From Eubacterium sp. (lineage in GTDB: Bacteria; Bacillota; Clostridia; Lachnospirales; Lachnospiraceae): a DNA stretch of 40,681 bases. Shown here piece after piece: positions 4,009-31,539 of the stretch. A program made the translations under genes and the position numbers. Numbering within the stretch: the stretch's first letter is position 1; each line of letters begins with the position of its first letter. The notes beneath the pieces were generated by a model. That model searched no databases. It saw only the letters and a list, made by a program, of their open reading frames with translations, and was not told the DNA's origin. The stretch covers positions 1-40,681 of the forward strand of contig JAFXZW010000128.1 of the NCBI GenBank assembly GCA_017541035.1, read 5' to 3'.

Positions 4009-4062
4009 AAAGGAAACCGCCGATTGCGGATTTCCGTGTCATTTTACAGGAGATATGTCATA

Positions 4063-6612: not shown

Positions 6613-7077
6613 TTGCGTAAGAATCCATTAGCTGAAGTTTTCTCGAAATTCCGGGTGTATTATTACCGGGATGTCTTCAAAAGGATCAATAACAGAGATC
6701 TGTCGCTGACAACGACGGAGGCTTACTGTCTGGAGATCATCGGAAGTCTGGACGAACCTACCATCAACGAGTTCGCAAGCTTCATGGGGATCTCTTCTCC
6801 GAATGCCACCTATAAGGTGAATTCCCTGATCCGTAAGGGATATCTTACCAAGAAACAGTCCGGATCGGACAAAAGGGAGATGCTCCTCTCGGTAACGGAT
6901 AAATATTATAAATACTGGAACATCAGTGATAAATATATGGAGATCGTTCAGGATCGTCTGGAAAAAAGTCTGACTCCGGAGGAGTATGCTTTTTTTACCA
7001 GGATCATGCAGAAGATCTCGGATGAAATGATGCCGGAAGCATCCATTCCTGCCGGGGAGGGAAAAAAGCATGAATAG
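6613..7077 (+). CDS. MarR-family regulator, probably FabT-like
   Basis: A 154-residue MarR-type winged-helix protein. The helix-turn-helix lies around residues 45-75 (INEFASFMGISSPNATYKVNSLIRKGYL) followed by the wing with Ser-Asp-Lys-Arg, and long helices at both ends form the dimer. The start is taken as TTG 6613 because AAAGGGG at 6597-6603 lies 9 nt before it; in-frame TTG 6586 and GTG 6604 are less well placed. It follows fabZ by 13 bp. In streptococci the MarR protein FabT represses the fab operon when bound to acyl-ACP, and this position suggests the same job. That function is inference. The gene overlaps the next one by 8 bp. Confidence 0.85.
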   Translation: MRKNPLAEVFSKFRVYYYRDVFKRINNRDLSLTTTEAYCLEIIGSLDEPTINEFASFMGISSPNATYKVNSLIRKGYLTKKQSGSDKREMLLSVTDKYYKYWNISDKYMEIVQDRLEKSLTPEEYAFFTRIMQKISDEMMPEASIPAGEGKKHE

Positions 7078-7693
7078 TATTTACGGTGAGTTTTATCCTT
7101 ATCTGGAGCAGGTCATGAATCGACTTCGCCGGGAAATGGAGGAATATGACAGGAAGGTCTTTGCGGAGACCGGAGAGCATATTTATGAGCATTTCATCAC
7201 GCGGATCAAATCGGAAGACAGTATGAGGGAAAAATGTGCGCGTAAAGGTCTTCCGGAAACACCCCACTCCGCGTTACGGGAACTGCGGGATTCCATCGGC
7301 ATTCGTATCGTGACGGCTTTTCGGGATGATATTTACAATATCATAGATGAGATCCGCAGAATGAAGAATGTGGAGATCGTGGAAGAGAAGGATTATATCC
7401 GGCATGCCAAGGCAAATGGATATCGCAGCTATCATATGATCCTGCTCGTAACGACTTCCTACCCGGATGTGGACGGGAATGCTAACGGACGTTATTATGT
7501 GGAAATACAGCTGCGGACCATTGCCATGGATTCCTGGGCCAGTCTGGAGCATAAGATGAAATACAAGAAAAATGTGGAAGATACGGAACTGATCGTATCC
7601 GAGTTGAAACGCTGTGCCGATGAACTGGCGGCCTGCGATGTGTCCATGCAGACCATCCGGAAGCTGATCATGGGTCATGACAGCCTCCGATAG
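7070..7693 (+). CDS. Small alarmone synthetase (GTP pyrophosphokinase), copy 1
   Basis: A 207-residue single-domain RelA/SpoT synthetase that should transfer pyrophosphate from ATP to GTP or GDP, giving (p)ppGpp. Synthetase motifs in order are RIKS (45-48, ATP binding), Asp74 in LRDSIGIRI (metal), the G-loop KANGYRSYH (114-122, guanine stacking Tyr118), and VEIQLRT (144-150, catalytic Glu145) followed by HKMKYKK. There is no HD hydrolase, TGS or ACT domain, so it resembles the RelQ/RelP (YjbM/YwaC) stand-alone synthetases rather than Rel. Its ATG lies inside the MarR gene (8-bp overlap), so it is coupled to the fatty-acid operon. Whether it is RelP-like or RelQ-like cannot be settled by eye. 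Confidence 0.93.
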   Translation: MNSIYGEFYPYLEQVMNRLRREMEEYDRKVFAETGEHIYEHFITRIKSEDSMREKCARKGLPETPHSALRELRDSIGIRIVTAFRDDIYNIIDEIRRMKNVEIVEEKDYIRHAKANGYRSYHMILLVTTSYPDVDGNANGRYYVEIQLRTIAMDSWASLEHKMKYKKNVEDTELIVSELKRCADELAACDVSMQTIRKLIMGHDSLR

Positions 7694-10827: not shown

Positions 10828-11499
10828 ATGGAAAATGAGAAGAATCCGACGCTTGAGGAAGTCGAGGAACTGGCCAAGGGAATCGCAAGAACACCTGCAT
10901 TTGTGCGCCTGATGACATATTATCGTTGTGCCATCATGGAGATTGAAACGAAGCTTCATGTTCTGAATGAGGAACTGTCCCTTCAGTATGACCGAAATCC
11001 CTTCGAATCCATTGAGAGTCGTCTGAAAAGCCCGGAAAGTATTGTTGAGAAAATGATACGGCGGGGAATCCCGCTTACTGTGGAGGACATGGAGCAGGAA
11101 ATGACAGACATTGCGGGGATCCGTGTAATCTGCTCTTTCCAGGAAGACCTGTACAGCCTGGCTGAGCTTCTGGTGGAACAGGACGATGTGCTGCTTCTTT
11201 CACGGAAGGATTATATAGAGAATCCGAAGTCGAACGGTTACCGTTCACTGCACCTGCTGATCGATATTCCGATCTTTCTGTATCAGGGAAAGAGACATAT
11301 GCGCGTGGAAGTGCAGTTCCGCACCATAGCCATGGATTTCTGGGCAAGTGTGGACCATAAGCTGAAATATAAGAAGACCATCCGGGAGCCGGAAAAGGTC
11401 GCGGCGAAGCTGAAGGTCTGTGCAGATACACTGGCCATGATGGATGCGGAAATGGAAGAGATACGTCGAACCATTGATGCGGATGGAGAAATCGAATGA
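10828..11499 (+). CDS. Small alarmone synthetase (GTP pyrophosphokinase), copy 2
   Basis: A 223-residue stand-alone (p)ppGpp synthetase, distinct from the copy at 7070. Motifs are RLKS (65-68), Asp94 in MTDIAGIRV, the G-loop NPKSNGYRSLH (122-132) and EVQFRT (Glu151, Arg155), then DHKLKYKK. It keeps the classic PKSNGYRSLH form more closely than copy 1 and has a longer N-terminal helical region. Both copies share the block RTIAMD-x-WAS-x2-HK-x-KYKK, so they are related. There is no hydrolase domain. AAGAGG at 10815-10820 lies 7 nt before the ATG, and the stop overlaps the next start (ATGA), so it is translationally coupled to the SanA-like gene. Confidence 0.93.
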   Translation: MENEKNPTLEEVEELAKGIARTPAFVRLMTYYRCAIMEIETKLHVLNEELSLQYDRNPFESIESRLKSPESIVEKMIRRGIPLTVEDMEQEMTDIAGIRVICSFQEDLYSLAELLVEQDDVLLLSRKDYIENPKSNGYRSLHLLIDIPIFLYQGKRHMRVEVQFRTIAMDFWASVDHKLKYKKTIREPEKVAAKLKVCADTLAMMDAEMEEIRRTIDADGEIE

Positions 11500-12842
11500 G
11501 TGATACGGAAGAAAAACGGAATGACTCCGCCGGGGAGAAAAGACCCCTGGGAGACGCTTCCGAAGCAGAAGAGAAGAAACCGGTCCGGGAAGGAAAAAAA
11601 CGTCCTGAAGGAAGGGTACCTTCGGAAGAAAGGCGTCCGGGAAGGGTACCTCCAGGAGAAGTCAGAAGGCGTCCGGAAGGAAAAGCACCATCCGGTGAAA
11701 TAAGAAGACTCCCCGAGGGAGAGAGAAGAGCGCCGGAAGGGGAAAGTAGAAGACGCCCCGAGGGGGAGAGAAGAGCCCCGGAAGGAGAAAGTAGAAGACG
11801 CCCCGAGGGAGAGAGAAGAGACCCGGAAGGAGAAAGTAGAAGACGCCCCGAGGGAGAGAGAAGGATACCTCCGGAAGAAGTCAGAAGACGCCCCGAGGGA
11901 GAGAGAAGGATACCTCCGGAAGAAGTCAGAAGGCGTCCGGAAGGAAAAGCACCATCCGGTGAAATAAGACGACGCCCCGAGGGAGAGAGAAGAGCCCCGG
12001 AAGGTGAAAGAAGACGACGCCCCGAGGGGGAGAGAAGGATACCTCCGGAAGAAGTCAGAAGACGTCCGGAAGGAGAACGAAGGCGGCCGGAAGAGTGGGA
12101 AGAACCGAGGGAAAGGCGGAGGCCGGAATCCCGGAAAAAACAGTCACCCGCAAAAAAGAAATGGATGAAATTCTTAAAGATTTCGCTCATTACACTGGGT
12201 ATTCTTTTCCTCCTTTTTGTTATGGGAACGTTGGCTGTAAACGGTTATATGCTCGTAGTTGACCGACGATATGTGAAAACGGTGAATGAATGGCATGACA
12301 GTATGATAGACGGAGAAGAGATCGACTGCATTTTTGTTCTGGGCTGCAGCGTGAATCCAGATCGTACACCCAGCGCGGCACTGAAGACGCGGTTGGACAG
12401 AGTCTGGGACCTATATAAGCTATCGCCTCATAAGGTTCTGGTCAGTGGGGATCATTCTGCTGACGGTTACTATAACGAGGTACGCGTCATGAAGGATTAT
12501 CTGATCGACAAAGGGATTCCGTCAGAGGAAATCTTCATCGATCACTACGGTTTTTCCACCTATGACAGCATTTACAGGGCCTATTTTACCTTCGGAGTAA
12601 GAAGGATGACCATTGTGACGGAAAACTCCCATATCTGCCGTGCGCTTTTTCTTGCCAGTGCCATCGGGATGGAGGCAGATGGCGTGGCAGCGGAGAATAC
12701 GAATATCACCGGAACATGGGAGCTTCGGGAGGTTCTGGCGAGGGATAAGGATTTTCTGGCATCCCTTTTCTGGCCGAAACCGGGGTATGACGGTGATTCG
12801 ATATCCCTTTCCGGAAATGGAGACGATACGAACGAAAGATAA
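11496..12842 (+). CDS. SanA/YdcF-like DUF218 membrane protein with Arg/Glu/Pro repeat tail
   Basis: A 448-residue protein in three parts. Residues ~1-215 are a low-complexity tail built from repeats of the type RRRPEGERRAPEGES, rich in Arg, Glu, Pro and Gly. One transmembrane helix follows at about 226-250. The C-terminal ~170 residues are a DUF218 domain of the SanA/YdcF type: DCIFVLGCSVNPDRTPSAAL, VLVSGDHSADGYYNE and TIVTENSHICRALFLASAIGM. SanA-family proteins affect envelope barrier function in Gram-negatives, but their reaction is unknown. The basic lysine-rich segment before the helix suggests the tail is cytoplasmic and the domain outside. The gene overlaps SAS2 by 4 bp and lies 10 bp before the Nudix gene. 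The tail is unusual for the family. Confidence 0.82.
   Translation: MSDTEEKRNDSAGEKRPLGDASEAEEKKPVREGKKRPEGRVPSEERRPGRVPPGEVRRRPEGKAPSGEIRRLPEGERRAPEGESRRRPEGERRAPEGESRRRPEGERRDPEGESRRRPEGERRIPPEEVRRRPEGERRIPPEEVRRRPEGKAPSGEIRRRPEGERRAPEGERRRRPEGERRIPPEEVRRRPEGERRRPEEWEEPRERRRPESRKKQSPAKKKWMKFLKISLITLGILFLLFVMGTLAVNGYMLVVDRRYVKTVNEWHDSMIDGEEIDCIFVLGCSVNPDRTPSAALKTRLDRVWDLYKLSPHKVLVSGDHSADGYYNEVRVMKDYLIDKGIPSEEIFIDHYGFSTYDSIYRAYFTFGVRRMTIVTENSHICRALFLASAIGMEADGVAAENTNITGTWELREVLARDKDFLASLFWPKPGYDGDSISLSGNGDDTNER
11590..12110 (+). repeat. In-frame degenerate tandem repeats coding the Arg/Glu/Pro tail
   Basis: About 500 bp of near-identical purine-rich units within the SanA-like gene; the core AGAAGACGCCCCGAGGG recurs many times, with alternating spacer types coding ERRAPEGES or ERRIPPEEV. 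Units vary in length by whole codons, so the frame is kept. Some neighbouring copies are identical over long stretches, which points to recent expansion by slippage or unequal recombination. Confidence 0.85.
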
Positions 12843-13413: not shown

Positions 13414-13516
13414 GAGAAGCCGGGCCGCAGAATATGGCGCGCTTTTTTCTGACTGGACAGTTTTTACGAAATTTCATCCGATTCTTCTGACAAATCTGAC
13501 AGAAGAAGATAAGAAG

Positions 13517-13561
13517 AGCATTTTTATCCACAGATGATTGTGGGTAAGGATGCTTTTTTTC
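13517..13561 (+). terminator. Rho-independent terminator of the AraC-SAS2-SanA-Nudix unit
   Basis: A 16-bp stem between 13517-13532 and 13539-13554, closed with three G-U pairs when read as RNA, has a 6-nt loop GATGAT and runs directly into a T-tract of at least seven bases. It lies about 100 bp after the Nudix stop codon. Confidence 0.85.
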
Positions 13562-13691: not shown

Positions 13692-13720
13692 GCAATCATC
13701 TCTATATTTTTAGAGATTGC
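13692..13720. promoter_or_regulatory. Imperfect inverted repeat upstream of the giant surface-protein gene
   Basis: GCAATC-AT-CTCTA (13692-13704) pairs with TAGAGATTGC (13711-13720), leaving a 2-nt bulge and an AT-rich loop. There is no T-tract after it, so it is not a typical terminator. Its place ~90 bp before the start codon suggests an operator or an mRNA leader hairpin; function is unproven. Confidence 0.35.
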
Positions 13721-13810
13721 CAGAGTCGCTTTCAAAATGATATGGTCATTTCATCGACAAGACTCCGCGGAATGACAGGAGCCAAATGATGAAGGAAGAA
13801 GGTGTGATCT

Positions 13811-16800
13811 ATGAAAAAAAGACGATTACTGGCGGCGTTTCTTGCGCTTTTTATGTGCTTACCGTCTGTTAGCGTTTCGGCGGAAGAAATGTCTTATGAG
13901 AGACTGGAAGCGCCGGAATGGGTTGGGAATCCCGGAGATCTGTATGAACAGAATCCCCCGGGCAACAGTGGAGAAAGGGAAGCAAGCGAGACAGGCGAGA
14001 GTACAACAGTCAGGCTCCTGACGGAGGATGAGCTGGCAGGCTTTTTAGAGGAACAGGGGAGAAAGGATGAAGGAAGACCATCATCCTTTGCGGAGGTGTC
14101 CTCCGACAGAAGCACGCAGGAAATGGATTTTTCTTCCCGGGAGCTGCTGGTAGCGACAGAGGATCCAACGGTTTTTACATGGGATACGGAGGTGATCTCG
14201 GAATACGGAGGCGTTTACCTGACACGATACGGTACGGCGGAGGAGACGAGAAATGCCTATCTGTATTACTCGGACAGAACGGAATTCGTGTCGCCGAACA
14301 TTTCCTTCTCCGTAGCGGAACCGGGGCAGGATAAAGATGAAGCAAATCCCGGAAATGATGCGAATCCCGAGGATGAAGCAAATCCCGAAAATGATGCGAA
14401 TCCCGGAATCGAAGCAAATCCGGAAGCAACAGCTGCTCTCAATCAGGGAGACGACGCCATTTCCCTTCTGAATGAGCTGGTGGAAGAGTCACCGGAGAAC
14501 CGGGACCGGGAGCATGTGATCGCTCTGATCGATACGGGTGTTGACAGACAGTATTTCGGTGATCTGGTGGATTTTGTGACACTGGTTGACGATGATGCGT
14601 CAGACAGCCATGGCCATGGTACAAGGATGTACAAGGCCATGAAGGAGGAGTACGCGGATGCCCGGATCCTTTCGATCAAAGCCCTGGATCGGAACGGGAA
14701 AGGAAAAGCATCGGATATCTATGCGGCGATCCAATATGCCATTTATCGAAATGCGGATGTCATTAATCTTTCCATGACTTCATACAGTACAGCTGAAAAT
14801 GAAGTGATACGAAACGTGATCCGGGAAGCGGTTGATGCGGGAATCACGGTTGTCGGTGCGGCGGGAAATGACGGCAGGGATGCAAAATACTATATTCCCG
14901 GAAGCATTGAAGAGGCTGTGATTGTAGGAGCCTGTACCGAAAAAGGCATTAAGACTTCTTTCTCCAATTTTGGGGCAACGGTCGACTGTTATGTTGTGGC
15001 GGAAAGCACTTCGGAAGCGGCAGCCCGTTATTCGGCACTATTTGTTGGAAATGTAACCGGATCCGGGGTCTTTTCCGAGGTATCTCCGGAGGAGAATAAA
15101 GAGCAGGAAGGCAGCAATATCCTCTTTGAAGCTGCGGAACTGAATCCCGGACATGAGGCGGGAGAGACGGAAGTAAGAGTTGCGATTAACGGAACGGAAT
15201 ATGAGCTCACAGTGCCGGAGTACATCATGCTTCCGGTTACCTTTGACAGTGATTCGCAGCAGGGAGCCAGTTCAAGAACATCCGGCTTTTTGGGCGCACC
15301 GGAAAAGACGGAGGGAACATGGAAGCATATCGGTAAAAGGACCATCCCTGCTTCAACGCAGCATGCGGCTTTTGATAATGACTGCGGCTCCTATCTGCGT
15401 ACACAGTTTACGACAGATGCCATGCGCGCGGCCGGCGGAAATCTGGCAGGCTTTGCGCAGTACATGGAAACAGATGAGAATGGTGTGATCACCCGAAGCG
15501 CGGCAGGCACAAACGGAAGCTACAGCTATGGAAAGGATACCGGCTGGCAGAAATTTTATGACAAAGGATATCGTTTATCGGTGCGTGACGGGGACAGGTA
15601 TGCTCCCAGCGTCAATTGTCTGGAGGCCCATGACGAAGCCCCCACAGGCGGTGCCGGAGATCAGTTTATTTTATATCCCGTAACGGCGAATCCCGGAACC
15701 GACTATGCGAATTATTATGCAGACGATCAATATGTTTACGTACCTTATCGTTCTGCACAGATCGATATCCGGCCGGTTACGGGGAAGGATCATGAACAGA
15801 ATTTTCTGATCGGCGCTTACATCAAAGTCCCGGTCAGGGAGTATTATGCAGCCATCAGGAAAAAAGACAATCAGGGAAATCTGATCAACAATGTTTCCTT
15901 TGATGTGTCTGTTGACGGGGAAGTGAGAAGCCGGGCACTGTATACGGGTTATTGCTATGACTGGAAGAGCGGACAATCAGCCAGACTGACGGATAAAAAC
16001 ATGAGAGGAATCGGCGTCCTCTCTTTTGGAAAAACAAAACCGGGAAAAGTAACCGTCACGGAGAACTGGAATGATCAGAGTGAGGGGCAGGGACAGTTGT
16101 GGGAGAGCATTTCGGCTTCAAAATCCTCTTCGGTAAAGTGGTCGGATTATGCCGAAAATCACGAATCCCGCGATGTGACTGTTTATGAAAGCATGGAAGA
16201 AGCAGTCTCTCATGCGGATGCTTTTACATGGGTTAATGTTCCGGAAACCATAGTTCCGAATCCTTTCTATGTGGCGATCCACAAGGTAGATGATGCAGGG
16301 CATCTTATGAAAAATGTATCCTTCGATATCGTTGCGGCGGGAAAGCTGAACGGAATGGATAAAACGGTAAGGTCACGGGTTTCAGCCACAAGCGGAATAT
16401 GGACAGGCTGGTACGTGGATCTGTCCGGAAGCACTCCTCGCTTTACAGAGCTTACGAGTGAAAATGATCTCGGGATTACCGGAATTGACCGCCTGGGAAC
16501 AGCCATCGCCTGCCTTGGCGAATGGGATACGCCTCCTGATGTGACGATAAAGGAAAACTGGGATTATGATCACCAGCTGACCGGTTTTTCCATGAAGCTC
16601 TATAAGTCAACCGGTGAGGAGGTTCCGGAAGCGGATTACCCGGTAGAGGGTTTTATCGATGAGGAAACGAGCCTTTCGGTAACACCGTTTGTGTCCGTGA
16701 TGACAGCGTGGAATAACCGAAAATCCTTTACATTTATCAATTATCCTCAGGATAATCCCCCTCCTCCGCCACCGGAGCTGACACCGATCTTTATAGCCAT

Positions 16801-19800
16801 CAAGAAGGAAGCGGAGAATCCGGAAGACGGTAAAATGTATCCTGTGAACGGAGTGACTTTCAGCATTTATACCGACCAGGAAGGTCATATCGCTGATGTT
16901 CCCACGGGCTTTTACTACGATAATATGGAGGTGATCCGGGAATGGCAGAACGACTGGCCGATCAAGACGTATGCGTATTCTACGGCTGAAGATCATGGGG
17001 ATCATATCACCTACGATCCGGCAGACAGTGAACGGACTATCAAATATCATGCAGACGGTGAGGTGAAAAAAGCAACCCTTCTCAGGACAGATGGATGGTT
17101 GATCTGCTATGTGGGGGATTATAATGTGACATGGACAGAGGATCCGAATGATCCCAATTCCTTCTTCGTGGAAGGCTGGCCCACGATCTATGCCTATGAG
17201 ACGAAGCGCACGGACAGAAGGTATGATTATGATCATTCGCTGATCATTCCGGAAATGGTGCTGGGCTATGATGAGGAAAGCGGAAAGGTAAAAACCAGGA
17301 AAATCAATCTGGATGATTATGAGATCGATACGCACAGAAGGATCAATCTGGAAGGATTTGAAAATCCGCCCAGATATCTGGAACGGTCACAGCTTCCCTC
17401 GGGAGTCTATCCGTATCTGCCGAATTATACCACCATACAGAATTATCTGAAGAGAACACTGAAGATATCCATGCGAAAAAGCTCCGCGCAAAATGACCTG
17501 ATGCTTTCCATGGATGGGATTAAATACGGGTTATATTATTCTTCACAGAAATATCAGCGCTTTACCGAAGACTATACAGGCGGCAGAGCCAGGTATGAAG
17601 ATAAATCGGAAACAGCCGTTGAGCCCATACTGATTGCAAGCTTTATCCTGGATAAAAAAGGAAATGTAAAGGCCATCGAGCCGGCGGACTTCAGAAGAGG
17701 GGAGCTGACGGATACGCTTCTCGGAATTGACGGAAAAAACCAGTATCCTTTTACAACCTATCCTTTCTGGAGTAATGAAGAGGTATATTTCAGCAGGCAG
17801 AAGGGGGATTATTACCCGATCGCCGGCAAAGGAGAATTTGAATATACAAAACCGACGATCACTTATGAAGGCGTTGTCGGAACGGATATGAAATACCTTC
17901 TTCTGCACCTTAATCCACAGGTGTCGTATAAAGAAGATAATAAGACAAAGTATATTCATACGGACATGGATGAAGCCCGCCGGAATATCCTTGCCGGGAC
18001 CTTCTTCTTCCGGGAATTGGAGACGAACGAGAATTACGAACTGAATGACAGGATTTATGATACACCGGTGATCTCCGTCGATACCAGCGAATGTGTTTTT
18101 GACATCGAGGACGATCCGCTCTTTGCGGACAAGCCCGTTAAAATGCCGTATTTTGCCGCAGTCAGAAAAACGGATGAGGATGACAGACCGATCAACGGGG
18201 TACCCTTTGATCTCACCGTGAACGGAACAACGCTTAAGGGGAGTGCAGAACAGGGCGTGATCACCGGATCCGTATATAATTACGATAACGGTGAACGTCT
18301 GTCGGTGGCAACCTACAGACCGGGCACGGGTGAGAATCTGACAGACAAGGTCTCTTTTGCGCTTACGGATAAAGGAGATATCATCAGAAAAACCGAACTG
18401 TCCAGACAGGATGGCGTGGCTTTGATCTATCTGGGCGTATATAAAGAGGCACCCTCTGTTTCCGTGAAGGAAAACTGGACGGGGACTGCTGAGCAGGTGA
18501 CCGGAAAAACAGCAGATAAAATCACAGTTATTCAGGTAAATGCGTCCGCCTTTGAGAAGGATCCGAATACCTGCGATCTTCCTGTCACCGGAGAAATATC
18601 TGAAGCAGTTTCAAATGTGAAAACCATCGTGAATGAGACGAATGGAAGTATCCGGGTGAAAAAGCTTCTCACACCCTCCAATATTAAGGGTGCCGATCCG
18701 ACAGGAGCAGAGTATACCGTAACAGCGGATGAAGGACAGGGCTTTGCCTATTCCGGTGTCTGCATCATTCAAAAGGACGGAACATCAAATGTCCTGGAGG
18801 GCCTGAAGAAGGGCCGGTATTCCATCGTGGAGACAAAAGGACCGGGAGGAAAGAGTAAGGAAGAATCCGAATGGTTCTTTGATAAAACTGTTTATCATGT
18901 AGAAATCACCGGCGATGGGGGCGTGAAGACTGTTTCGTCGAGCATATCCCAGAAAGCAACCCAGGCGACCGTTCTTTCGACGGATACTCATAAACCCTGT
19001 GATTTTTATCTGTCCATCCGGAAATCTTCATCCAATCCGGATTATGAGCCGGATATGGCAGGAACGGCCTATGGCTTGTACTTCGGTTCCGTTGCGGAGG
19101 CAAACAGGGTGGGAACCATTATCATGGATCAGGACGGCCTGGCTCATTCCGTGACCGGAAATGACAACTGGAAGCATGTAGTTTATCGGTATATCGGAAC
19201 GGAGAAGGAAAAACGAAAGGTGACCGTAAAGGGAGAACTTAAGGATACAGAGATCCTTTATCTTCACCTGCAAAGTGACGGTTCTGTCTCCGAGATTCCG
19301 GCGGGGACCTTCAAACTGAAGGAAATCCGGAATCATCAGAACTATGAACTGAATGAAGGAGTGTCGGATATTCCGGCCATTCCAAAGGATGAAAAACTTC
19401 TGCTGGATGCGGAAAGGGTTGATGTTCTTGCTGAGAAGCCGGTTTACGGAAGTATTCAGGTGAAAAAGAGTCTGCAGCCTTCTGATATACCAGGAGCCTC
19501 TCCTGCGGGAGCGGAATATACCGTTGTTGCTGAAGAGGGGCAAAGCTTTACCTATACCGGTATATGCAGGATCAAGGCGGACGGAACCTCTGATATTCTT
19601 CACGGGCTGCAGCCCGGAAGATACAGGGTTGAGGAAACAAAAGCTCCGGACAAGGGAAGCTGGGAACTGGATGATCATATCTACGTGGTCACCATCGCAG
19701 TGGATGGCGGAAGCAAAATCCTGAATGCGGAGCTTGTTACGGCTACAGCAAAGGATGCAACCATTGAGTCCGTAGATTATGCGCGCGGAGATCTTCGCCT

Positions 19801-22800
19801 TGTAAAGAGACAGGAAGACGGAGCTCCCATGGCGGGAGTCCATTTTATCATACGGAATACGGAAAGCGGTGAGTCAGTCGAGATTGTAACGGATGAGAAT
19901 GGTTACTGGTCCAGTGAAAGCAGCTATGCTCTTCATTCATTCAAAACGAATGAAGCTGAGGCAAAAACAGGATGCTGGTTTTACGGTACAGGGAAGAAGG
20001 AAATGATCAACGATCATTACGGAGCTTTCCCTGCAGGGGAGTATACCGTGACGGAGAAGAATGCGAAAGGAAAACAGAAAGAGGATGCCATACACGTTGC
20101 CGTTACCGGTAAAGGCGTACAGGATGTGTATGATACCCGAAGGACGGATGACCGAAAAGAAATAACGGATATGGAGCTTCCGTCTCTGACATCAAAGGCA
20201 GTGATCCTGACAGAGGCGGGAGAAGCAAAGGAAGCATCTCCGATGCCGGGACTTACCGTAAGGGATACGGTCAGCTATACAAATCTGCGGGCGGATACGG
20301 ACTATACACTTGCAGGCCGGCTGATGCGGATCAATAAAGACGGAACACTGACAGAAGTAAAAACCGGGGCAAAGACGTTCCATACGCCGGCTTCCTATGC
20401 AAAGTCCGGGTACGGAGTCTGCGGAACGGCAGAGATGGTATTTAAGGATGTAGACTTCTCGTCCGCAGCAGGAACACAGTTTATTGTCTTCCAGAGAGTA
20501 TATCTGGGGTCTCCGGCTGACGGTTTCACGTCCTACAGGGATGCATTTCCGGACAGCAATAATGATGTGGTTGTATTCCCGCTGGTTCATGAAGATGTGA
20601 AGGATAAGGACCAGACGATTACTGTTCTGGGAAAACTATGTGTTCATAAAATACTGAATGTGGAAGGGGATCCATCAGGAGCGGAGTACACGGTAAAGGG
20701 TGTGACGGATCCGGAATTTCGAACGGTACTTTCCATTGGTGCTGACGGCTTTTCGGAAAGCGTTGCGCTTCCCTTCGGGTCCTATACCGTAAGGGAAACA
20801 AAGCTTCCGTCCAGGGGTGAATGGGCCATGGACGGGAATACCTATACTGTGGAGATCGCTCTGAACAAGGGAGAAGCTACGATCGGATCTTCCCTAAAGG
20901 GAGAAGCCGGATCGGCAACGATTGTTTCAAATGAAGTGGCCAGGACATTTGTCACGCTGAAAAAGAGATCAAAAGATGAAACAATTGTCCGGAACAATCC
21001 GAATTATTCCCTGGCCGGGGCAGAGTATCAGCTTTTTGCGTCAGAGGCGGATGCAAAGGAGGCGTTGGAGAAAAAGGATTATTCATCCGCTCTGGGGACA
21101 TGGATCACCGATGAGGATGGTAATACCGATCTGATCGAGGTGACTGACTGGATGAAGGGTGCGGATGAGAAAGCCTTCTATGTTGTGGAGTCTGCAGCAG
21201 CCAGAAACTACCTGCGCAGTACGGAAATCACCGGAATCATGGTTAAAAAGGATAATCTGCGAAATTCTCCAGCATGCTTTATTGTGGAAGATGAGCCTGT
21301 CAGGGTACCGGCGGAGGCGGTGATCCGGAAGATAGACCGGCTGACGGGAGGTACAAACACTGCAAAGGGAAAGACTCTGGAAGGTGCTTCCTTTACCATT
21401 GCTTATTATGCGTCTGATATCACGGCTTCCGGACCTGTGGGAGATCCTGTTTTTACCGAGACTTTTGCGGCAAAGAAGGATGAGGATTACCGGATATCCT
21501 TCAGCAGGACACTTCCGCTGGGCTTTCTGGTGATCAGGGAGATTCGGCTTCCGGAGGAGTACACGAAGGAGGGCGCGGAGATAACGGCAGACGGAAAGAA
21601 GGCTACAGAGCCCATCGTAATCCGGCTTTCCGGAACCTATCAGAATGATCATGCAGTCTTTACTCCGGAGTATACGCTGGCTGATGGCAAGAAGCTTTCA
21701 TCATTGGAGGTGATCTGGGAGAATACACCGATCCGCGGCAATATTGATCTTGTGAAGAAGAGTCTCGCAGGAGAAGGAATGGCCGGTGTTGAGTTTGAGA
21801 TCAAAAATAAAGAAACCGGCGAAAGCCATATTCTTGTCAGTGATGAGAAAGGAAGAGCGGCAACCGGGACCGATACAGATTCTTCCGTCTGGTTTTCTCT
21901 CGGGGAAGAAGGAGACATCAGGCCGAAGGATGGTTTTGCGGCATTGCCTCTCGGAACCTATATCGTGACGGAGCTGCGCTGTGCGGCCAATGAAGGGTAT
22001 CAGTTGAATGCACCGGTTGAAGTAACGCTGACGGCAGATCAGCCGGAAGCACATCTTGCAACAGCAGTGGCTGAAGAGGATGGTATGACATACTTTTATA
22101 ATGTCCCGAATCCTGTGATCCGGACACTGGCAAAGGCAGCTTCCACAGATTCGAAGACCATGCCCCAGAGCGGTGAAAAGGGGGAAACCATCCTGGATAC
22201 CGTCAGCTATGATTTCCTGCGGGAGAATACCACGTATACTCTTGTGGGAACGCTTATGGTAGCGGATCACCGGACCGGTTCGGTTTACGCATATCCGAAG
22301 GACGGAAAGCCATATCGGATTACAAAGTCCTTTACGACAGAGAAAGGATATGAGAAGTCCGTTTATGAAAAGTCCGGAAGGGTTGAGATGGAATTTACGG
22401 ATATTTATCCGGAGAATTATGAGGGTTGTTCATTCGTTGTGTTCGAGAAGCTGTATTACGGAACGAATACCGAAACGGCGGATCAGTATGAGGAGATTGA
22501 AGATAATGAGATTTTCCCGATTGAACATACAGACATTCATGACGCGGACCAGACTGTGGAGGTGGCTGATATTCAGACCCATGCAAAGGATTCCTGCCGG
22601 GAGCATATTGCGAGACCGGAAGGGACCGTTACCATCGTCGATGCCGTAAGCTATACAGGTCTTACTGTGGGGGAAACCTATACCATAACAGGAGATCTGC
22701 ATGTGACAGGATATACATGGAAGGATGCGGACGGAAAGGAGATAAAAAACACAGAAACAGATGAACCGCTGAAGGATAAGGAGGGTCATGTGATCACGGC

Positions 22801-25800
22801 TTCCGAGACCTTTACGGCAACAACATCTGCGGGAATAAGAGAGCTTGGCTTTACTGTCGATGCGGACCTTTTACAGGGACAGAGTGTCGTAGTCTTCGAG
22901 AATCTGTATTATAAGGAAATGCGGATTGCCTTTCATGCGGATCTTCGGGATGAGAATCAGACGATCCATTTTCCGAATATCCATACTACGCTGTTCCGGG
23001 AGGGAACAGAAGACTGGGCAGAGGATTTCGACGAAAATGACATAACCAAAAAAACAGTGGCAGATGAGGCATCCCGGGAAGTGATGGCTGCGGAGAACGC
23101 GGTAGTGATCGATCGCATCCGTTATCATAATCTTCTGGCGAACCGTACCTACCGGATCTATGGTGTGCTGATGGATAAGACCACGGGACAGAAGCTGGTA
23201 GACGCGGACGGGAAAAATGTGGAGGTTAATACAACCTTTACCACACCCAGCGTGGACGCCGTGCCGGATCAGACATCACCGAATTCGGCAAAGTATGTAA
23301 CAGAAGACGGAGTCATTCTGGATATGTCAGCGGATCATGGGAATTATACGGTAGATGGATTTGTCAAAGTACAGTTTCCCGCTTTTGATGCACGCAATCT
23401 TGCCAACCATACTGCCGTAGCCTTTGAGGAAATCCGGCTTCTGACAGAAGAAGGGGAGATCCTTGTGGCGGAGCATAAGGATATGGATGACAGTGATCAG
23501 ACAGTCCGTTTCATTGAGATCGGAACGAGGGCAGAGGTAAAGGAAACAAAAACACAGCTGCTCAACGCAAAAGGAGAAACAACGATCATTGATACGGTAG
23601 AGTATCATAATGTGGTTCCCGGAAAGACGTATTCCATGGAGGCTGCTCTGGTCGTTTCCAATGATAAATCCGGCTATTATAAAGAAGGTGACCGGCTGAA
23701 GGATACAGAGGGGAACGAGGTAAAGGCTGTGATATCCTTCATACCGGATCAGGCGGACGGGACGATAGATGTTCCGGTTACCTTTAAGGGACATTTCACG
23801 CCGGAAATGAATGTGGTATGCTTTGAGACCATGCGAAATGAGAAGGGGCTTGTGGTTGCGGCTCATAACAGCATTTCCGATGGAAATCAGACGGTATATA
23901 AAATGGCCATCGGAACCTATGCAACGGTAGATGGCTGCAAGACGGTATCTGCTGATGGAAGGGTGAACGTATCGGACAGGGTGGAGTACAGAAACCTGAT
24001 CCCCGGACTAACCTATGAGGTGACCGGTGTTCTGATCCGGAAATCGGACGGCCGGGAGATCATGATAAATGAAGAAAGGAGCGCTGCAGGGTCCACCACC
24101 TTTACACCGGACAAAGCCAACGGTTTTGTGACGGTTGACTTCCCGGAATTTGATGCATCCGGTCTGAAGGGAGATGCGCTGGTGGTTTTCGAGTATATGT
24201 ATGTGATCGCAGATGACGGTCATAGGGCGATGGTTGCATACCATGAAGATCTGTCGGATGAGGATCAGACCATTACCTTCCCGGAGATCCATACCGCCCT
24301 GTACCGTGCAGATGCATCTGAATGGGCGGAAGACGATTCAGCCAGGGAGGTGATGGCGGAAGAAAATGCAAAAGTAGTGGATAAGGTGACTTACGCCGGC
24401 ATTCCGGCAGACAGTGAGTATCAGCTGAAGGGAATCCTGATGGATAAGGAAACCGGAAAGCCTGCACTGGATGCGGAAGGGAAGGAGATTCGGAGTGGGG
24501 CTGTATTCAGGACAGCTGCTTCTGCCGACGGACAGGCAGGCGGAACCGCAGATGTGATATTTACCTTTGACGCAGGTGATCTGGCAGGACACACACTGGT
24601 AGCTTATGAGGAGCTCTATCTGATCCGGAAAGGACAGGAGGACATCCTGATGGCCGAGCATAAGGAACTCAATGACCAGGATCAGACTGTCCGGTTCATA
24701 AAGATCGGAACGAAGGCGGAAACAGAAACCGGAACACAGGTATTCTCTACTGCGGGTGAGACAACGGTTTATGATACGGTAACATATCATAACGTGAAGC
24801 CGGGTAAGGAGTATACCATGACGGCAACACTGATGGTAACAGGAGATATCACCGGTTATGATCAGAGCGGGCAGAAGCTCACGGATGCTGCCGGAAATGT
24901 GATTACCAGAACCGTTACATTTGTACCGGAGGACACGGACGGAACCATGGTAGTCCCGATTACCTTCAGCGGATATCTGATACCGGAAATTCGGATCGTT
25001 GCATTCGAAACCATGCGGAATGACAAGGGTCTTACGGTAGCAGTTCATAATGATATTACGGACAGAGATCAGACAACCTATGTGGTTAAGATCGGAACGG
25101 CAGCCAATGTAAATGACCGCCGAGAGGCACTGGGAACGACCGGAGTCATTGTAAATGATGCGGTTATGTACAGTAATGCGGTTCCGGGACTCAGCTATAT
25201 GATCAGAGGTATCCTGATGGATAAGGAGTCAGGGAAACCTGTAGTCATCAACGGAAAGGAAGTGACTGCGGAGAAGAGTTTTGTTCCGCAGTATGCGAAC
25301 CGCTATGAGATGATCCGGTTCCCAGAGATTGATGCCACAGCCCTGCGGGGAAAGGATATCGTGGTATTTGAAAAAATGTATCTTGTGGTAAATGACGAGG
25401 CCGGAAGCAGACTCGAATATGAAGTGGCAAAGCACGAAGACCTGAATGATGAAGGCCAGACCATCAGCTTCCCGGAGATCGGAACCAGCGTAAGGGATGA
25501 GGCGGATGGAGACCGAGTCCTTCGGGAAAATGAAACGGCATCGATCATTGATACGGTAACCTATCAGAATCTCAGTCCCGGTGACCGGTATACCGTTAAG
25601 GGATATCTGGTTTACGGGTCGGACGGAGAAAGTGTCCTGCAGAACGGAGTACCCGTGACCGGAGAAGCATCCTTTACGCCGGATGCGGAGAACGGAAGCG
25701 TGGAGGTGAACTTCCGCTTTGAAACAAAGGGAATGAAGGAAAACAGGCTTGTTGTTTTTGAGGAGATTTACAGTGATTCGGGGGAACTGGTAGGAGAGCA

Positions 25801-25993
25801 TAAGGATCTGACCGATGAGAATCAGACGATCCTGATCGAGCAGGTTTCACCGAAGAAAAAGAAGACTCCGAAAACCGGAGATGATACCCCGATTCTGTTC
25901 CTTCTGGCACTGATGCTGTCATCCGTAAGCTGTGCAGTCCTCGTGATGAGGAAAAAAAGAAAGGAACGCATGAAGCAGGATGGGAAGCAATAA
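13811..25993 (+). CDS. Giant cell-wall-anchored fibre protein with N-terminal subtilase domain
   Basis: A 4060-residue secreted protein. In order: signal peptide (1 to about 24, ending SVSA); acidic propeptide-like region with an Asn-Pro-rich repeat (about 178-210); compact S8 protease domain (about 233-415) with Asp241, His269, Asn353 and Ser401; an unassigned region with few cysteines (about 480-675); about thirteen Cna-B/SpaA-like modules (about 676-2770); ten VaFE T-Q ester modules (one at about 2116-2273, nine at about 2769-4010); and a sorting signal TPKTG (4019-4023), hydrophobic segment and Lys/Arg tail. Cna-B isopeptide and T-Q ester bonds stiffen such stalks, so a long covalently locked fibre presenting a protease at its tip is inferred. 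No sortase gene is in the window. The ATG follows GAAGGAAGAAGG. A single intact frame over 12 kb argues that it is functional. Confidence 0.9.
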   Translation: MKKRRLLAAFLALFMCLPSVSVSAEEMSYERLEAPEWVGNPGDLYEQNPPGNSGEREASETGESTTVRLLTEDELAGFLEEQGRKDEGRPSSFAEVSSDRSTQEMDFSSRELLVATEDPTVFTWDTEVISEYGGVYLTRYGTAEETRNAYLYYSDRTEFVSPNISFSVAEPGQDKDEANPGNDANPEDEANPENDANPGIEANPEATAALNQGDDAISLLNELVEESPENRDREHVIALIDTGVDRQYFGDLVDFVTLVDDDASDSHGHGTRMYKAMKEEYADARILSIKALDRNGKGKASDIYAAIQYAIYRNADVINLSMTSYSTAENEVIRNVIREAVDAGITVVGAAGNDGRDAKYYIPGSIEEAVIVGACTEKGIKTSFSNFGATVDCYVVAESTSEAAARYSALFVGNVTGSGVFSEVSPEENKEQEGSNILFEAAELNPGHEAGETEVRVAINGTEYELTVPEYIMLPVTFDSDSQQGASSRTSGFLGAPEKTEGTWKHIGKRTIPASTQHAAFDNDCGSYLRTQFTTDAMRAAGGNLAGFAQYMETDENGVITRSAAGTNGSYSYGKDTGWQKFYDKGYRLSVRDGDRYAPSVNCLEAHDEAPTGGAGDQFILYPVTANPGTDYANYYADDQYVYVPYRSAQIDIRPVTGKDHEQNFLIGAYIKVPVREYYAAIRKKDNQGNLINNVSFDVSVDGEVRSRALYTGYCYDWKSGQSARLTDKNMRGIGVLSFGKTKPGKVTVTENWNDQSEGQGQLWESISASKSSSVKWSDYAENHESRDVTVYESMEEAVSHADAFTWVNVPETIVPNPFYVAIHKVDDAGHLMKNVSFDIVAAGKLNGMDKTVRSRVSATSGIWTGWYVDLSGSTPRFTELTSENDLGITGIDRLGTAIACLGEWDTPPDVTIKENWDYDHQLTGFSMKLYKSTGEEVPEADYPVEGFIDEETSLSVTPFVSVMTAWNNRKSFTFINYPQDNPPPPPPELTPIFIAIKKEAENPEDGKMYPVNGVTFSIYTDQEGHIADVPTGFYYDNMEVIREWQNDWPIKTYAYSTAEDHGDHITYDPADSERTIKYHADGEVKKATLLRTDGWLICYVGDYNVTWTEDPNDPNSFFVEGWPTIYAYETKRTDRRYDYDHSLIIPEMVLGYDEESGKVKTRKINLDDYEIDTHRRINLEGFENPPRYLERSQLPSGVYPYLPNYTTIQNYLKRTLKISMRKSSAQNDLMLSMDGIKYGLYYSSQKYQRFTEDYTGGRARYEDKSETAVEPILIASFILDKKGNVKAIEPADFRRGELTDTLLGIDGKNQYPFTTYPFWSNEEVYFSRQKGDYYPIAGKGEFEYTKPTITYEGVVGTDMKYLLLHLNPQVSYKEDNKTKYIHTDMDEARRNILAGTFFFRELETNENYELNDRIYDTPVISVDTSECVFDIEDDPLFADKPVKMPYFAAVRKTDEDDRPINGVPFDLTVNGTTLKGSAEQGVITGSVYNYDNGERLSVATYRPGTGENLTDKVSFALTDKGDIIRKTELSRQDGVALIYLGVYKEAPSVSVKENWTGTAEQVTGKTADKITVIQVNASAFEKDPNTCDLPVTGEISEAVSNVKTIVNETNGSIRVKKLLTPSNIKGADPTGAEYTVTADEGQGFAYSGVCIIQKDGTSNVLEGLKKGRYSIVETKGPGGKSKEESEWFFDKTVYHVEITGDGGVKTVSSSISQKATQATVLSTDTHKPCDFYLSIRKSSSNPDYEPDMAGTAYGLYFGSVAEANRVGTIIMDQDGLAHSVTGNDNWKHVVYRYIGTEKEKRKVTVKGELKDTEILYLHLQSDGSVSEIPAGTFKLKEIRNHQNYELNEGVSDIPAIPKDEKLLLDAERVDVLAEKPVYGSIQVKKSLQPSDIPGASPAGAEYTVVAEEGQSFTYTGICRIKADGTSDILHGLQPGRYRVEETKAPDKGSWELDDHIYVVTIAVDGGSKILNAELVTATAKDATIESVDYARGDLRLVKRQEDGAPMAGVHFIIRNTESGESVEIVTDENGYWSSESSYALHSFKTNEAEAKTGCWFYGTGKKEMINDHYGAFPAGEYTVTEKNAKGKQKEDAIHVAVTGKGVQDVYDTRRTDDRKEITDMELPSLTSKAVILTEAGEAKEASPMPGLTVRDTVSYTNLRADTDYTLAGRLMRINKDGTLTEVKTGAKTFHTPASYAKSGYGVCGTAEMVFKDVDFSSAAGTQFIVFQRVYLGSPADGFTSYRDAFPDSNNDVVVFPLVHEDVKDKDQTITVLGKLCVHKILNVEGDPSGAEYTVKGVTDPEFRTVLSIGADGFSESVALPFGSYTVRETKLPSRGEWAMDGNTYTVEIALNKGEATIGSSLKGEAGSATIVSNEVARTFVTLKKRSKDETIVRNNPNYSLAGAEYQLFASEADAKEALEKKDYSSALGTWITDEDGNTDLIEVTDWMKGADEKAFYVVESAAARNYLRSTEITGIMVKKDNLRNSPACFIVEDEPVRVPAEAVIRKIDRLTGGTNTAKGKTLEGASFTIAYYASDITASGPVGDPVFTETFAAKKDEDYRISFSRTLPLGFLVIREIRLPEEYTKEGAEITADGKKATEPIVIRLSGTYQNDHAVFTPEYTLADGKKLSSLEVIWENTPIRGNIDLVKKSLAGEGMAGVEFEIKNKETGESHILVSDEKGRAATGTDTDSSVWFSLGEEGDIRPKDGFAALPLGTYIVTELRCAANEGYQLNAPVEVTLTADQPEAHLATAVAEEDGMTYFYNVPNPVIRTLAKAASTDSKTMPQSGEKGETILDTVSYDFLRENTTYTLVGTLMVADHRTGSVYAYPKDGKPYRITKSFTTEKGYEKSVYEKSGRVEMEFTDIYPENYEGCSFVVFEKLYYGTNTETADQYEEIEDNEIFPIEHTDIHDADQTVEVADIQTHAKDSCREHIARPEGTVTIVDAVSYTGLTVGETYTITGDLHVTGYTWKDADGKEIKNTETDEPLKDKEGHVITASETFTATTSAGIRELGFTVDADLLQGQSVVVFENLYYKEMRIAFHADLRDENQTIHFPNIHTTLFREGTEDWAEDFDENDITKKTVADEASREVMAAENAVVIDRIRYHNLLANRTYRIYGVLMDKTTGQKLVDADGKNVEVNTTFTTPSVDAVPDQTSPNSAKYVTEDGVILDMSADHGNYTVDGFVKVQFPAFDARNLANHTAVAFEEIRLLTEEGEILVAEHKDMDDSDQTVRFIEIGTRAEVKETKTQLLNAKGETTIIDTVEYHNVVPGKTYSMEAALVVSNDKSGYYKEGDRLKDTEGNEVKAVISFIPDQADGTIDVPVTFKGHFTPEMNVVCFETMRNEKGLVVAAHNSISDGNQTVYKMAIGTYATVDGCKTVSADGRVNVSDRVEYRNLIPGLTYEVTGVLIRKSDGREIMINEERSAAGSTTFTPDKANGFVTVDFPEFDASGLKGDALVVFEYMYVIADDGHRAMVAYHEDLSDEDQTITFPEIHTALYRADASEWAEDDSAREVMAEENAKVVDKVTYAGIPADSEYQLKGILMDKETGKPALDAEGKEIRSGAVFRTAASADGQAGGTADVIFTFDAGDLAGHTLVAYEELYLIRKGQEDILMAEHKELNDQDQTVRFIKIGTKAETETGTQVFSTAGETTVYDTVTYHNVKPGKEYTMTATLMVTGDITGYDQSGQKLTDAAGNVITRTVTFVPEDTDGTMVVPITFSGYLIPEIRIVAFETMRNDKGLTVAVHNDITDRDQTTYVVKIGTAANVNDRREALGTTGVIVNDAVMYSNAVPGLSYMIRGILMDKESGKPVVINGKEVTAEKSFVPQYANRYEMIRFPEIDATALRGKDIVVFEKMYLVVNDEAGSRLEYEVAKHEDLNDEGQTISFPEIGTSVRDEADGDRVLRENETASIIDTVTYQNLSPGDRYTVKGYLVYGSDGESVLQNGVPVTGEASFTPDAENGSVEVNFRFETKGMKENRLVVFEEIYSDSGELVGEHKDLTDENQTILIEQVSPKKKKTPKTGDDTPILFLLALMLSSVSCAVLVMRKKRKERMKQDGKQ
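14506..15055 (+). other. Subtilisin-like (S8) protease domain of the giant protein
   Basis: Motifs in order are ALIDTGVD (Asp241), SHGHGTRM (His269), VINLSMTSY, VVGAAGNDG (oxyanion Asn353) and AESTSEAAARYSA (Ser401). All three catalytic residues and the oxyanion Asn are therefore present and correctly ordered. Spacings are short (28, 84 and 48 residues) compared with subtilisin, so the domain is compact, and the usual Gly of the GTS motif is Ser399. Activity is likely but not certain. Confidence 0.85.
15838..18560 (+). other. Divergent Cna-B-like modules with an ENW signature
   Basis: Four related modules begin YYAAIRKKD (residue ~677), FYVAIHKVD (~819), IFIAIKKEA (~994) and YFAAVRKTD (~1447). 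Each continues with an N-x-V-x-F pattern and closes on VTVTENW, VTIKENW, VTWTEDP and VSVKENW. A further type, ISMRKSS (~1217), lies between the third and fourth. The leading Lys and closing Glu sit where Cna-B domains place their isopeptide residues, so these are read as divergent Cna-B folds; this is inference from pattern only. Confidence 0.55.
18640..22117 (+). other. SpaA/Cna-B module block, interrupted by one VaFE module
   Basis: Typical SpaA openings with Lys and closing E-T-K-x-P motifs are seen: SIRVKKLL (~1614), a second ISMRKSS-type module opening SIRKSSSNPD (~1733), SIQVKKSL (~1880), GDLRLVKR (~1993), KLCVHKIL (~2275), FVTLKKRS (~2380), EAVIRKID (~2502) and GNIDLVKK (~2643). Several end in VEETKAP, VRETKLP or VIREIRLP. 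One VaFE module sits at about 20160-20632, between the fourth and fifth classical types. Confidence 0.7.
22118..25846 (+). other. Nine consecutive VaFE (T-Q ester) modules
   Basis: Nine modules of ~120-180 residues each start with an I-x-T strand, continue with a D-x-V-x-Y strand and a pG-x-x-Y strand, then V-[VAC]-[FY]-E, and end in H-x-D/S-(4-5)-QT. The Gln of the final motif and the preceding His are kept in all nine (for example HKDMDDSDQT, HNSISDGNQT, HKDLTDENQT). Known VaFE domains form a Thr-Gln ester crosslink, so each is predicted to be self-crosslinked. Confidence 0.85.
25865..25993 (+). other. C-terminal sorting signal TPKTG and membrane anchor
   Basis: A lysine-rich linker leads to TPKTG (residues 4019-4023), Asp-Asp, a hydrophobic stretch of ~20 residues (TPILFLLALMLSSVSCAVLV) and a Lys/Arg-rich tail. 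This is the layout of a sortase substrate; Leu of LPXTG is replaced by Thr, as in some clostridial sorting signals. Confidence 0.85.
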
Positions 25994-28742: not shown

Positions 28743-29067
28743 TAGAGAGGCGCATTTTACAGGGTAAGAAAAAGGCGCATTTTACAGGATAAGAAAAAAG
28801 CGTATTTTTACAGGATAAGAAAAAAGCGTATTTTACAGGGTAAGAAAAAAGGGCATTTTATAGGGTAAGAAAAAGGTTGCATTTTTACCGAAAAAGAAGT
28901 AGAGTATAGTTTAGTGGCTTTTTGCACTTTAATGCGCTAAAGCGTTCTGGACTTTATTTTGAAGGCGGTGTGGTTATGACGAAGTTGTGACATCTGTAGC
29001 GCACCGACCGAAGTGCCGCCGAACCTGTGTGAGGGGGCAATATCTTTTATACAAGGAGAAAAATGCA
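28743..29067. other. 325-bp gap between clpB and paaK
   Basis: The first ~150 bp hold the tandem repeat array (28750-28896). The remainder includes a short imperfect palindrome, AATGCGC-TAA-AGCGTT, at about 28930-28945, a GGCGG (28964-28968) that can pair with CCGCC (29016-29020), and the paaK Shine-Dalgarno AAGGAG at 29053-29058. TATAGT at 28915-28920 could be a -10 box but lacks a well-placed -35. No gene is supported. Confidence 0.5.
28750..28896. repeat. Tandem array of ~25-bp units after clpB
   Basis: Five full copies start at 28750, 28775, 28800, 28826 and 28851, with a sixth degraded copy from 28876. Each has the core ATTTTACAGG (or ATTTTATAGG, with one extra T in copy 3), then G/A, then TAAGAAAAA. 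Units are 25-26 bp, contiguous, without spacers. Each can form a small imperfect hairpin (TTTTAC with GTAAGAAAA). Confidence 0.9.
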
Positions 29068-30378: not shown

Positions 30379-30429
30379 GAAGCATGGACTTTGTTGAACA
30401 TAAGACAGCTTGAGGAGCATAGCAGTTTG

Positions 30430-31539
30430 ATGATAAAAATCAGAAACAGAATACTGACAGGAGGATTGCTTTTCCTCTTTGCATTGGGGGCATGGTCTGA
30501 CCATGCCCTTGCTGCGTCTTCCCCCAATGGATTCTGGGAAAAGCATAACGGAAAATGGTATTATTCAAGTAACGGAGGGGAATACCTTACCGGCTGGCTT
30601 CGGATTGGGAAGGACCGGTACTTTCTGAATAAAAGCGGTTCCATGGAGACCGGCTGGAAATGCATATCCGGAAACTGGTACTTCTTCGGAAGAGACGGGA
30701 GGATGGGGACCGGCTGGAGGTGCATATCCGGAAAATGGTATTATTTTGATGATCAGGGAATCATGCAGACCGGCTGGCTGGAAAGTGACGGAGATACATA
30801 TTTCCTGAACAGCTACGGGTACATGGTGGCCGGATGGAGCAAGATCGGTGAAAACTGGTATTTCTTTAATGAATCCGGAATCCTGCAGCGGGATACACTG
30901 ATTGACGGGCAGTATGTGGATGAGAATGGTATCTGGCTAAAGGATGTACCGCGTTCCCGGCGACTTAACGTGGAGTGTATTTATCAGAAACCCGAGCTTC
31001 CCAATGGCTGCGAAGTGACATCTCTCTCCATGGTGCTGCGATATATGGGCTTTCCGGTGGATAAGAAAATGCTCTCGGATCAATATCTGCCGAAGGGTTC
31101 TTCCGGGAAGGTTACTCCCTATGAGGCTTTTATCGGCAATCCGAGCAGCGTAAATGGGTGGTACTGCTTCAGCCCGGTGATCGTGAAATGTGCCAACAGC
31201 TATCTGCAAAGTGTCCGGGCGGATAAAGAAGCCGTGGATCTGTCGGGAAGCTCCTTCGAAGCTCTTTTCCGGGAAGTGGATCATGGACGGCCGGTTATTA
31301 TCTGGGGAACTCTTGGTATGGGAAGCCCGAAATATAACGGCAGCTGGAATGTGAGGGGAACGATCTGCAAGCGATTAATCAATCTTCATTGCTTCGTACT
31401 GACGGGGTATGATCTGGATCGGGATCTGGTCTATCTATCCGATCCGCTTGCAGGAAACCGGACATTCAGATTAAGCACCTGCCGGAAATGTTATGAACAG
31501 CTGAATTCACAGGCTGTTGTGATCCGGGACAGGAAATGA
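30430..31539 (+). CDS. Secreted C39-like cysteine peptidase with cell-wall-binding repeats
   Basis: A 369-residue exported protein. Residues 1 to about 27 are a signal peptide ending in ALA. About five cell-wall/choline-binding-type repeats follow (about 30-155), each with the pattern GW-x(5-7)-WY-[FY]-F. The C-terminal ~190 residues are a papain-like C39_2 domain: Cys194 in LPNGCEVTSLSMVLRYMGF, His320 in INLHCFVLTGYD and Asp338 in LSDPLAG. It probably cleaves a peptide or peptidoglycan stem while held on the wall; the substrate is unknown. ATG 30430 was chosen (GAGGAG 12 nt upstream); TTG 30427 is nearly as good, and TTG 30391 would add 13 residues before the signal peptide. It is 51 bp after paaK. 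Confidence 0.87.
   Translation: MIKIRNRILTGGLLFLFALGAWSDHALAASSPNGFWEKHNGKWYYSSNGGEYLTGWLRIGKDRYFLNKSGSMETGWKCISGNWYFFGRDGRMGTGWRCISGKWYYFDDQGIMQTGWLESDGDTYFLNSYGYMVAGWSKIGENWYFFNESGILQRDTLIDGQYVDENGIWLKDVPRSRRLNVECIYQKPELPNGCEVTSLSMVLRYMGFPVDKKMLSDQYLPKGSSGKVTPYEAFIGNPSSVNGWYCFSPVIVKCANSYLQSVRADKEAVDLSGSSFEALFREVDHGRPVIIWGTLGMGSPKYNGSWNVRGTICKRLINLHCFVLTGYDLDRDLVYLSDPLAGNRTFRLSTCRKCYEQLNSQAVVIRDRK

Follow-up and report, generated by a model that had tools for sequence, protein, structure and literature searches.

The usual interpretation of a giant, cross-linked surface protein is that it is an adhesin; what, then, would a subtilase do at the outer end of such a protein? We explored this question in a 40,681-nucleotide stretch (hereafter the window) from an Eubacterium sp. 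(contig JAFXZW010000128.1 of assembly GCA_017541035.1), in which a single uninterrupted open reading frame with no internal stop (13811-25993, + strand) encodes 4060 amino acids (aa). The initial annotation had described this frame as a signal peptide, an S8 protease domain, about 13 Cna-B-like modules, ten VaFE modules and a sorting signal, with the protease, in place of an adhesin head, on a stalk predicted to be locked by isopeptide and ester bonds, which suggested a tethered enzyme acting on host or neighbour surface proteins or a self-processing adhesin. Consistently with this description, the frame is intact, the N-terminus reads by eye as a signal peptide, and Pfam and NCBIfam profile searches confirmed an S8 domain (Pfam Peptidase_S8, residues 235-399) that precedes the stalk and a wall anchor that comes last. 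Two modules had been overlooked: a propeptide-like one (residues 104-171) and another between protease and stalk (residues ~414-690). We propose that the protein is an anchored, autoprocessing protease of narrow specificity at the outer end of a cross-linking stalk, a reading to which we give about an even chance.

A trimmed subtilase domain

The S8 match (E 1e-16, whole protein searched) spanned only positions 4-209 of the 288 in the Pfam profile and left the catalytic Ser outside, because the chain is shortened between the SN(Y/F)G motif and this Ser, as seen in alignments of 26 and later of 43 heads. The same family alignments place the catalytic Ser at S401; in an AlphaFold2 model of residues 89-711, built from 24 sequences, it is model residue 313, predicted to be the second residue of a helix (312-325). 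The Asn-to-Ser spacing was 15 in 25 of 26 trimmed heads and 13 in the remaining one, whereas it was at least 24 in the ordinary subtilase frames compared, except L145 (28 comparison frames with a value, L076 and L113 being one protein counted twice; the pattern was mis-placed in L089 and in L115, which has ~29 by eye, and L092 gave no value). The GTSMAAP-type motif of the comparison frames reads STSEAAA in the window. In L145 (genome G702) the spacing, counted by eye, is ~20, and this subtilase may be an intermediate between the canonical and trimmed forms.

The catalytic residues D241, H269, N353 and S401 were identical in 43/43 members of the family alignment and are among the 16 invariant columns of 184 in the S8 domain, for a mean pairwise identity of 49% (range 35-97%, with four pairs >95%). 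Since these four residues are invariant, the trimmed domain is probably active. Its substrate range may be narrow. Residues 233-415, whose fold the initial annotation had left to be checked, are predicted to fold as a subtilase, the model aligning with pro-subtilisins.

Several features weigh against an active protease of narrow specificity. The substrate cleft is altered: the chain lacks about 15 residues directly ahead of the catalytic Ser, and all 43 members lack the Gly of the substrate-binding strand (position 127 in subtilisin numbering), whereas 17 of the 29 comparison rows, in which one protein occurs twice, have it. The sequence after the Ser helix is short and not recognisably that of a subtilase, but the model can be aligned structurally as far as subtilisin residue ~260, within a low-confidence part of the model, which weighs against complete loss of the post-Ser part. 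In addition, residue identity rather than geometry points to the catalytic triad, we know of no enzyme with such trimming that has been shown to be active, and the variable module after the protease is a putative binder. The Pfam match, ending at 209/288, had also prompted a pseudo-protease reading, demoted to a rival because S401 is invariant. Here, the trimmed subtilase would no longer cut and would serve as a non-catalytic binding domain, either an adhesin or a structural cap. The lost pre-Ser segment and altered substrate strand agree with such a domain, whereas the identity of four catalytic residues in 43/43 members and the retention of the propeptide in 40/43 disagree with it, as pseudo-enzymes usually lose their catalytic residues; we consider it clearly unlikely.

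Within the genus, 31 of the 61 genomes sampled have the trimmed head, at 40 places, one of them a contig-end fragment. The 43 members comprise the other 39 places together with L110, L111, L112 and L017, a relative in an Eubacterium sp. metagenome-assembled genome retrieved by a collection scan with short exact patterns, which says little about absence. Since 43 frames, window included, have the shared head and 40 of them the propeptide-like module, the architecture is not a product of chance. The window's own genome holds two copies: besides the window frame, contig C95 has one of 2884 aa in which the domain order is the same. A further subtilase frame (1412 aa, locus L016) lies on its contig C137 and gives a two-part S8 match. 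Of 397 genomes drawn from the same family (334 genera, a breadth that suggests Lachnospiraceae), ten gave matches at E 1e-40 or better: two belong to the genus, four are strong ones from other genera (G525, G635, G645, G760) and four are weaker. Five frames from this draw were read, of which L144 (G525) was trimmed, L145 intermediate and L146-L148 longer. Among 392 genomes of the order, 21 matched at E 1e-25 (own genome counted); outside the genus, every frame read was either canonical or shortened only moderately. Among 398 genomes of the phylum, the own genome was the sole match at E 1e-38.

Modules on either side of the protease

Residues 104-171 had no sequence match in PDB or Pfam, and at E up to 1 the 24 members searched hit five Pfam families between them, none of these a propeptide family. 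Overall, the AlphaFold2 model had a mean predicted local distance difference test score (pLDDT) of 57.5 and a predicted template modelling score of 0.51, with this module and the greater part of S8 mostly at pLDDT 80-94. Its best structural matches in the Foldseek ranking were unprocessed pro-subtilisins, and the alignment ran across module and protease alike (model residues 20-339, protein residues 108-427). The module is present in 40/43 members (not detected in L064, L068 and L139), and nine loci from other genera have a related one: three with a trimmed S8 (L110, L111, L112), five with canonical subtilases (L113-L117; E 1e-10 to 1e-5, several matches partial) and a short frame without S8 (L118). 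Because the predicted fold aligns with pro-subtilisins and a related module precedes canonical subtilases, residues 104-171 are most simply read as a subtilase propeptide. Propeptide and catalytic domain would thus resemble in fold the zymogens pro-subtilisin E and Tk-subtilisin, from which the window protein differs by its missing pre-Ser residues (~15) and by being part of an anchored giant protein. Two of the members with no propeptide detected, L068 (689 aa) and L139 (672 aa), are short and have no detected stalk modules either; L068 has choline-binding repeats in their place.

A rival reading is a self-only maturation device, in which S8 cuts its own propeptide, perhaps exposing the adjoining binding module, and has no further substrate, the fibre being an adhesin. 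PCSK9 is a precedent for self-only processing. However, the three of 43 members without a detectable propeptide keep all four catalytic residues, and we regard such a device as rather unlikely.

On the other side of the protease, the window module (~414-690) has relatives in G002 (twice), G011, G035 and G448 of the genus and in the own-genome paralogue, with a weak match in a fifth genome of the genus (G003). It had no Pfam match at the curated cut-off, and the structure predicted for residues 430-700 was uninterpretable (pLDDT 32.7). Among members, S8 and the first stalk module recognised by home-made profiles lie 224-499 residues apart, where 499 is our cut-off and missed first modules inflate the distance, as in the window (stalk from ~691); L069 is an exception, its frame ending 54 residues after S8. 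Single linkage at E 1e-5 divided the 42 post-S8 segments of at least 60 residues into 18 groups; the largest has 14 segments, linked perhaps partly by terminal Cna-B-like residues. Since only 64 of 861 segment pairs were alike at this threshold, compared with 903 of 903 S8 pairs, the propeptide-S8 cassette is, at the level of sequence, constant and the adjoining module variable; the latter may be the binding part. The notion of a protease head instead of an adhesin head stood in that S8 precedes the stalk, and was too simple because a variable, possibly binding module follows.

No thioester domain was found by sequence in the whole protein (no TED match in Pfam, searched to E 0.1, or in NCBIfam, searched to E 0.01). 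A candidate at residues 500-700, with two Cys and some Gln conserved in a seven-sequence alignment, was set aside, the predicted structure there being the uninterpretable one above. NlpC/P60-like modules after S8 in L052 and L068 scored below the cut-off and hence are not claimed.

Stalk, wall anchor and known systems

The count of ten VaFE modules was exact (Pfam T-Q ester domain, 10 stretches, E 2.6e-221; NCBIfam VaFE_rpt, 10 stretches). Thr, Asp, His, Asp and Gln occur in all ten and the buried Glu in nine, module 1 having Gln there. Thr and the first Asp were assigned by pattern, without alignment to Cpe0147 (Thr of modules 1 and 4 by eye), and the His/Asp/Gln spacing equals that of Cpe0147, with residue roles as given in the excerpt of PMC12679949. 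With its bond-forming residues retained, the ester part of the proposed stalk locking would hold. Of the ~13 Cna-B-like modules, Pfam recovered five stretches (SpaA, PF17802; E 1.1e-36) and a home-made profile eight; the rest were seen by lysine-strand patterns only, partly read by eye. The sorting signal was corroborated by LPXTG_anchor in NCBIfam (residues 4020-4051, 17.9 bits against a cut-off of 15.9) and by its motif, TPKTG (4019-4023). SpaA-like modules and ester modules each occur in 38/43 members. Of the 38 frames whose 3' end is complete, 29 have a sorting-like tail by pattern, L064, L110 and L128 were added by eye, and six have none, among them L067, whose end reads N.

Anchored subtilases are known already, and so, separately, are stalks with ester bonds. 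Cell envelope proteinases (lactocepin PrtP, C5a peptidase ScpA, ScpC/SpyCEP) resemble the window protein in gross order and sortase anchor, with a pre-propeptide, an N-terminal S8 domain, a multi-domain stalk and, in many, an LPXTG-type anchor, as set out in the excerpt of PMC10535647. They have Fn3-like domains after S8 and sometimes a PA insert, whereas the window protein has a stalk of Cna-B-like and T-Q ester modules and no Fn3_5 match after the protease at E up to 0.1 (Pfam). Their subtilase domain is of ordinary length, unlike the trimmed one of the window. A general nutrient-type tethered protease that degrades bulk protein would share its gross order with lactocepin (propeptide, S8, stalk, LPXTG; excerpt of PMC10535647). 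Such a role is highly improbable here: Pfam, searched to E 0.1, gives neither a PA nor an Fn3 domain, the cleft is altered, and the 1412-aa subtilase on C137 looks closer to the lactocepin class, judged on its two-part S8 match alone.

The thioester-isopeptide-ester (TIE) adhesins (Mobiluncus giant adhesin; Cpe0147 ester domains) have the same kind of stalk, a long single chain of isopeptide- and ester-type modules, and in the excerpt of PMC10619420 a thioester domain comes first; the window protein, in contrast, has a propeptide and a subtilase before the stalk and no thioester domain found by sequence. Neither membership fits the whole protein. Our searches of openly licensed PubMed Central papers gave no description of a protease on an ester-bonded stalk or of the trimmed domain, and the possibility allowed by the initial annotation, that the architecture might be well described already, was not borne out by them.

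Table 1. Features of the 4060-residue frame, in positions of the window
Feature	Positions	Strand	Basis
Signal peptide (residues ~1-25)	13811..13885	+	Read from sequence by eye; cleavage site inferred
Glu-rich linker (residues 26-103)	13886..14119	+	Composition
Putative subtilisin-type propeptide (residues ~104-171)	14120..14323	+	Family alignment (24 sequences), predicted model
Propeptide-protease linker (residues 172-229); tandem repeats 14336-14425	14324..14497	+	Sequence
Trimmed subtilase domain (residues 230-413); D241, H269, S401, oxyanion N353	14498..15049	+	Pfam S8, fold, family alignment
Unknown-fold module (residues ~414-690), type differing between relatives	15050..15880	+	Sequence relatives
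SpaA/Cna-B-like block 1 (residues 691-2121)	15881..20173	+	Pfam SpaA, home-made profile, some by pattern only
T-Q ester (VaFE) module 1 (residues 2122-2272); Gln in place of the buried Glu	20174..20626	+	Profile and residue check
SpaA/Cna-B-like block 2 (residues 2273-2763)	20627..22099	+	Home-made profile
T-Q ester (VaFE) modules 2-10 (residues 2764-4008)	22100..25834	+	Pfam, NCBIfam, residue check
TPKTG sorting signal, hydrophobic stretch, basic tail, stop	25865..25993	+	NCBIfam LPXTG_anchor and sequence

Upstream of the frame, a promoter-like site (13717-13746) and a terminator-like hairpin (13514-13557) fit a single-gene unit weakly, given the scan counts beside those of shuffles (23 promoter-like sites against 14.9, standard deviation 3.5; 15 terminator-like sites against 12.1, standard deviation 3.8). 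An operon partner was also considered and rejected, as the ~20 neighbouring frames scanned look housekeeping or unrelated. Elsewhere in the window, a protein with choline-binding repeats and a Peptidase_C39-like domain (30391-31539) is likely another surface protein near the giant frame. A response regulator and a histidine kinase are encoded between two genes with RelA/SpoT domains, small alarmone synthetase-like (7070-7693 and 10828-11499), that lie ~3 kb from each other. A DUF218 protein gene contains long, imperfect tandem repeats of 45/90 bases (11703-12093), and five tandem copies of a 25-base unit (28750-28885) stand shortly after the clpB stop codon and before a CoA ligase gene.

Proposed working and meaning

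In the anchored, autoprocessing protease that we favour, the propeptide would aid S8 folding after export and then be removed autocatalytically, which would leave the protease as the new N-terminus at the stalk tip, while sortase would attach the opposite end of the chain to the wall. The variable adjoining module would determine to which surface the tip is held; there the protease, whose substrate cleft is altered, would cut a narrow set of substrates, perhaps including part of its own chain. We tentatively suggest, although with more doubt than belief, that these proteins form a lineage-restricted new subtilase class, in which the fixed pre-Ser shortening would mark a dedicated enzyme and a constant propeptide-protease cassette, set on interchangeable surface modules, would be self-activating and re-targetable on a covalently locked stalk.

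About half of the sampled genomes of this genus have a subtilase at the outer end of a giant protein, with strictly constrained catalytic residues. If active, it would equip these cells with a protease tethered to the far end of a long fibre, and it would be a natural subtilase without the segment directly before the catalytic Ser.
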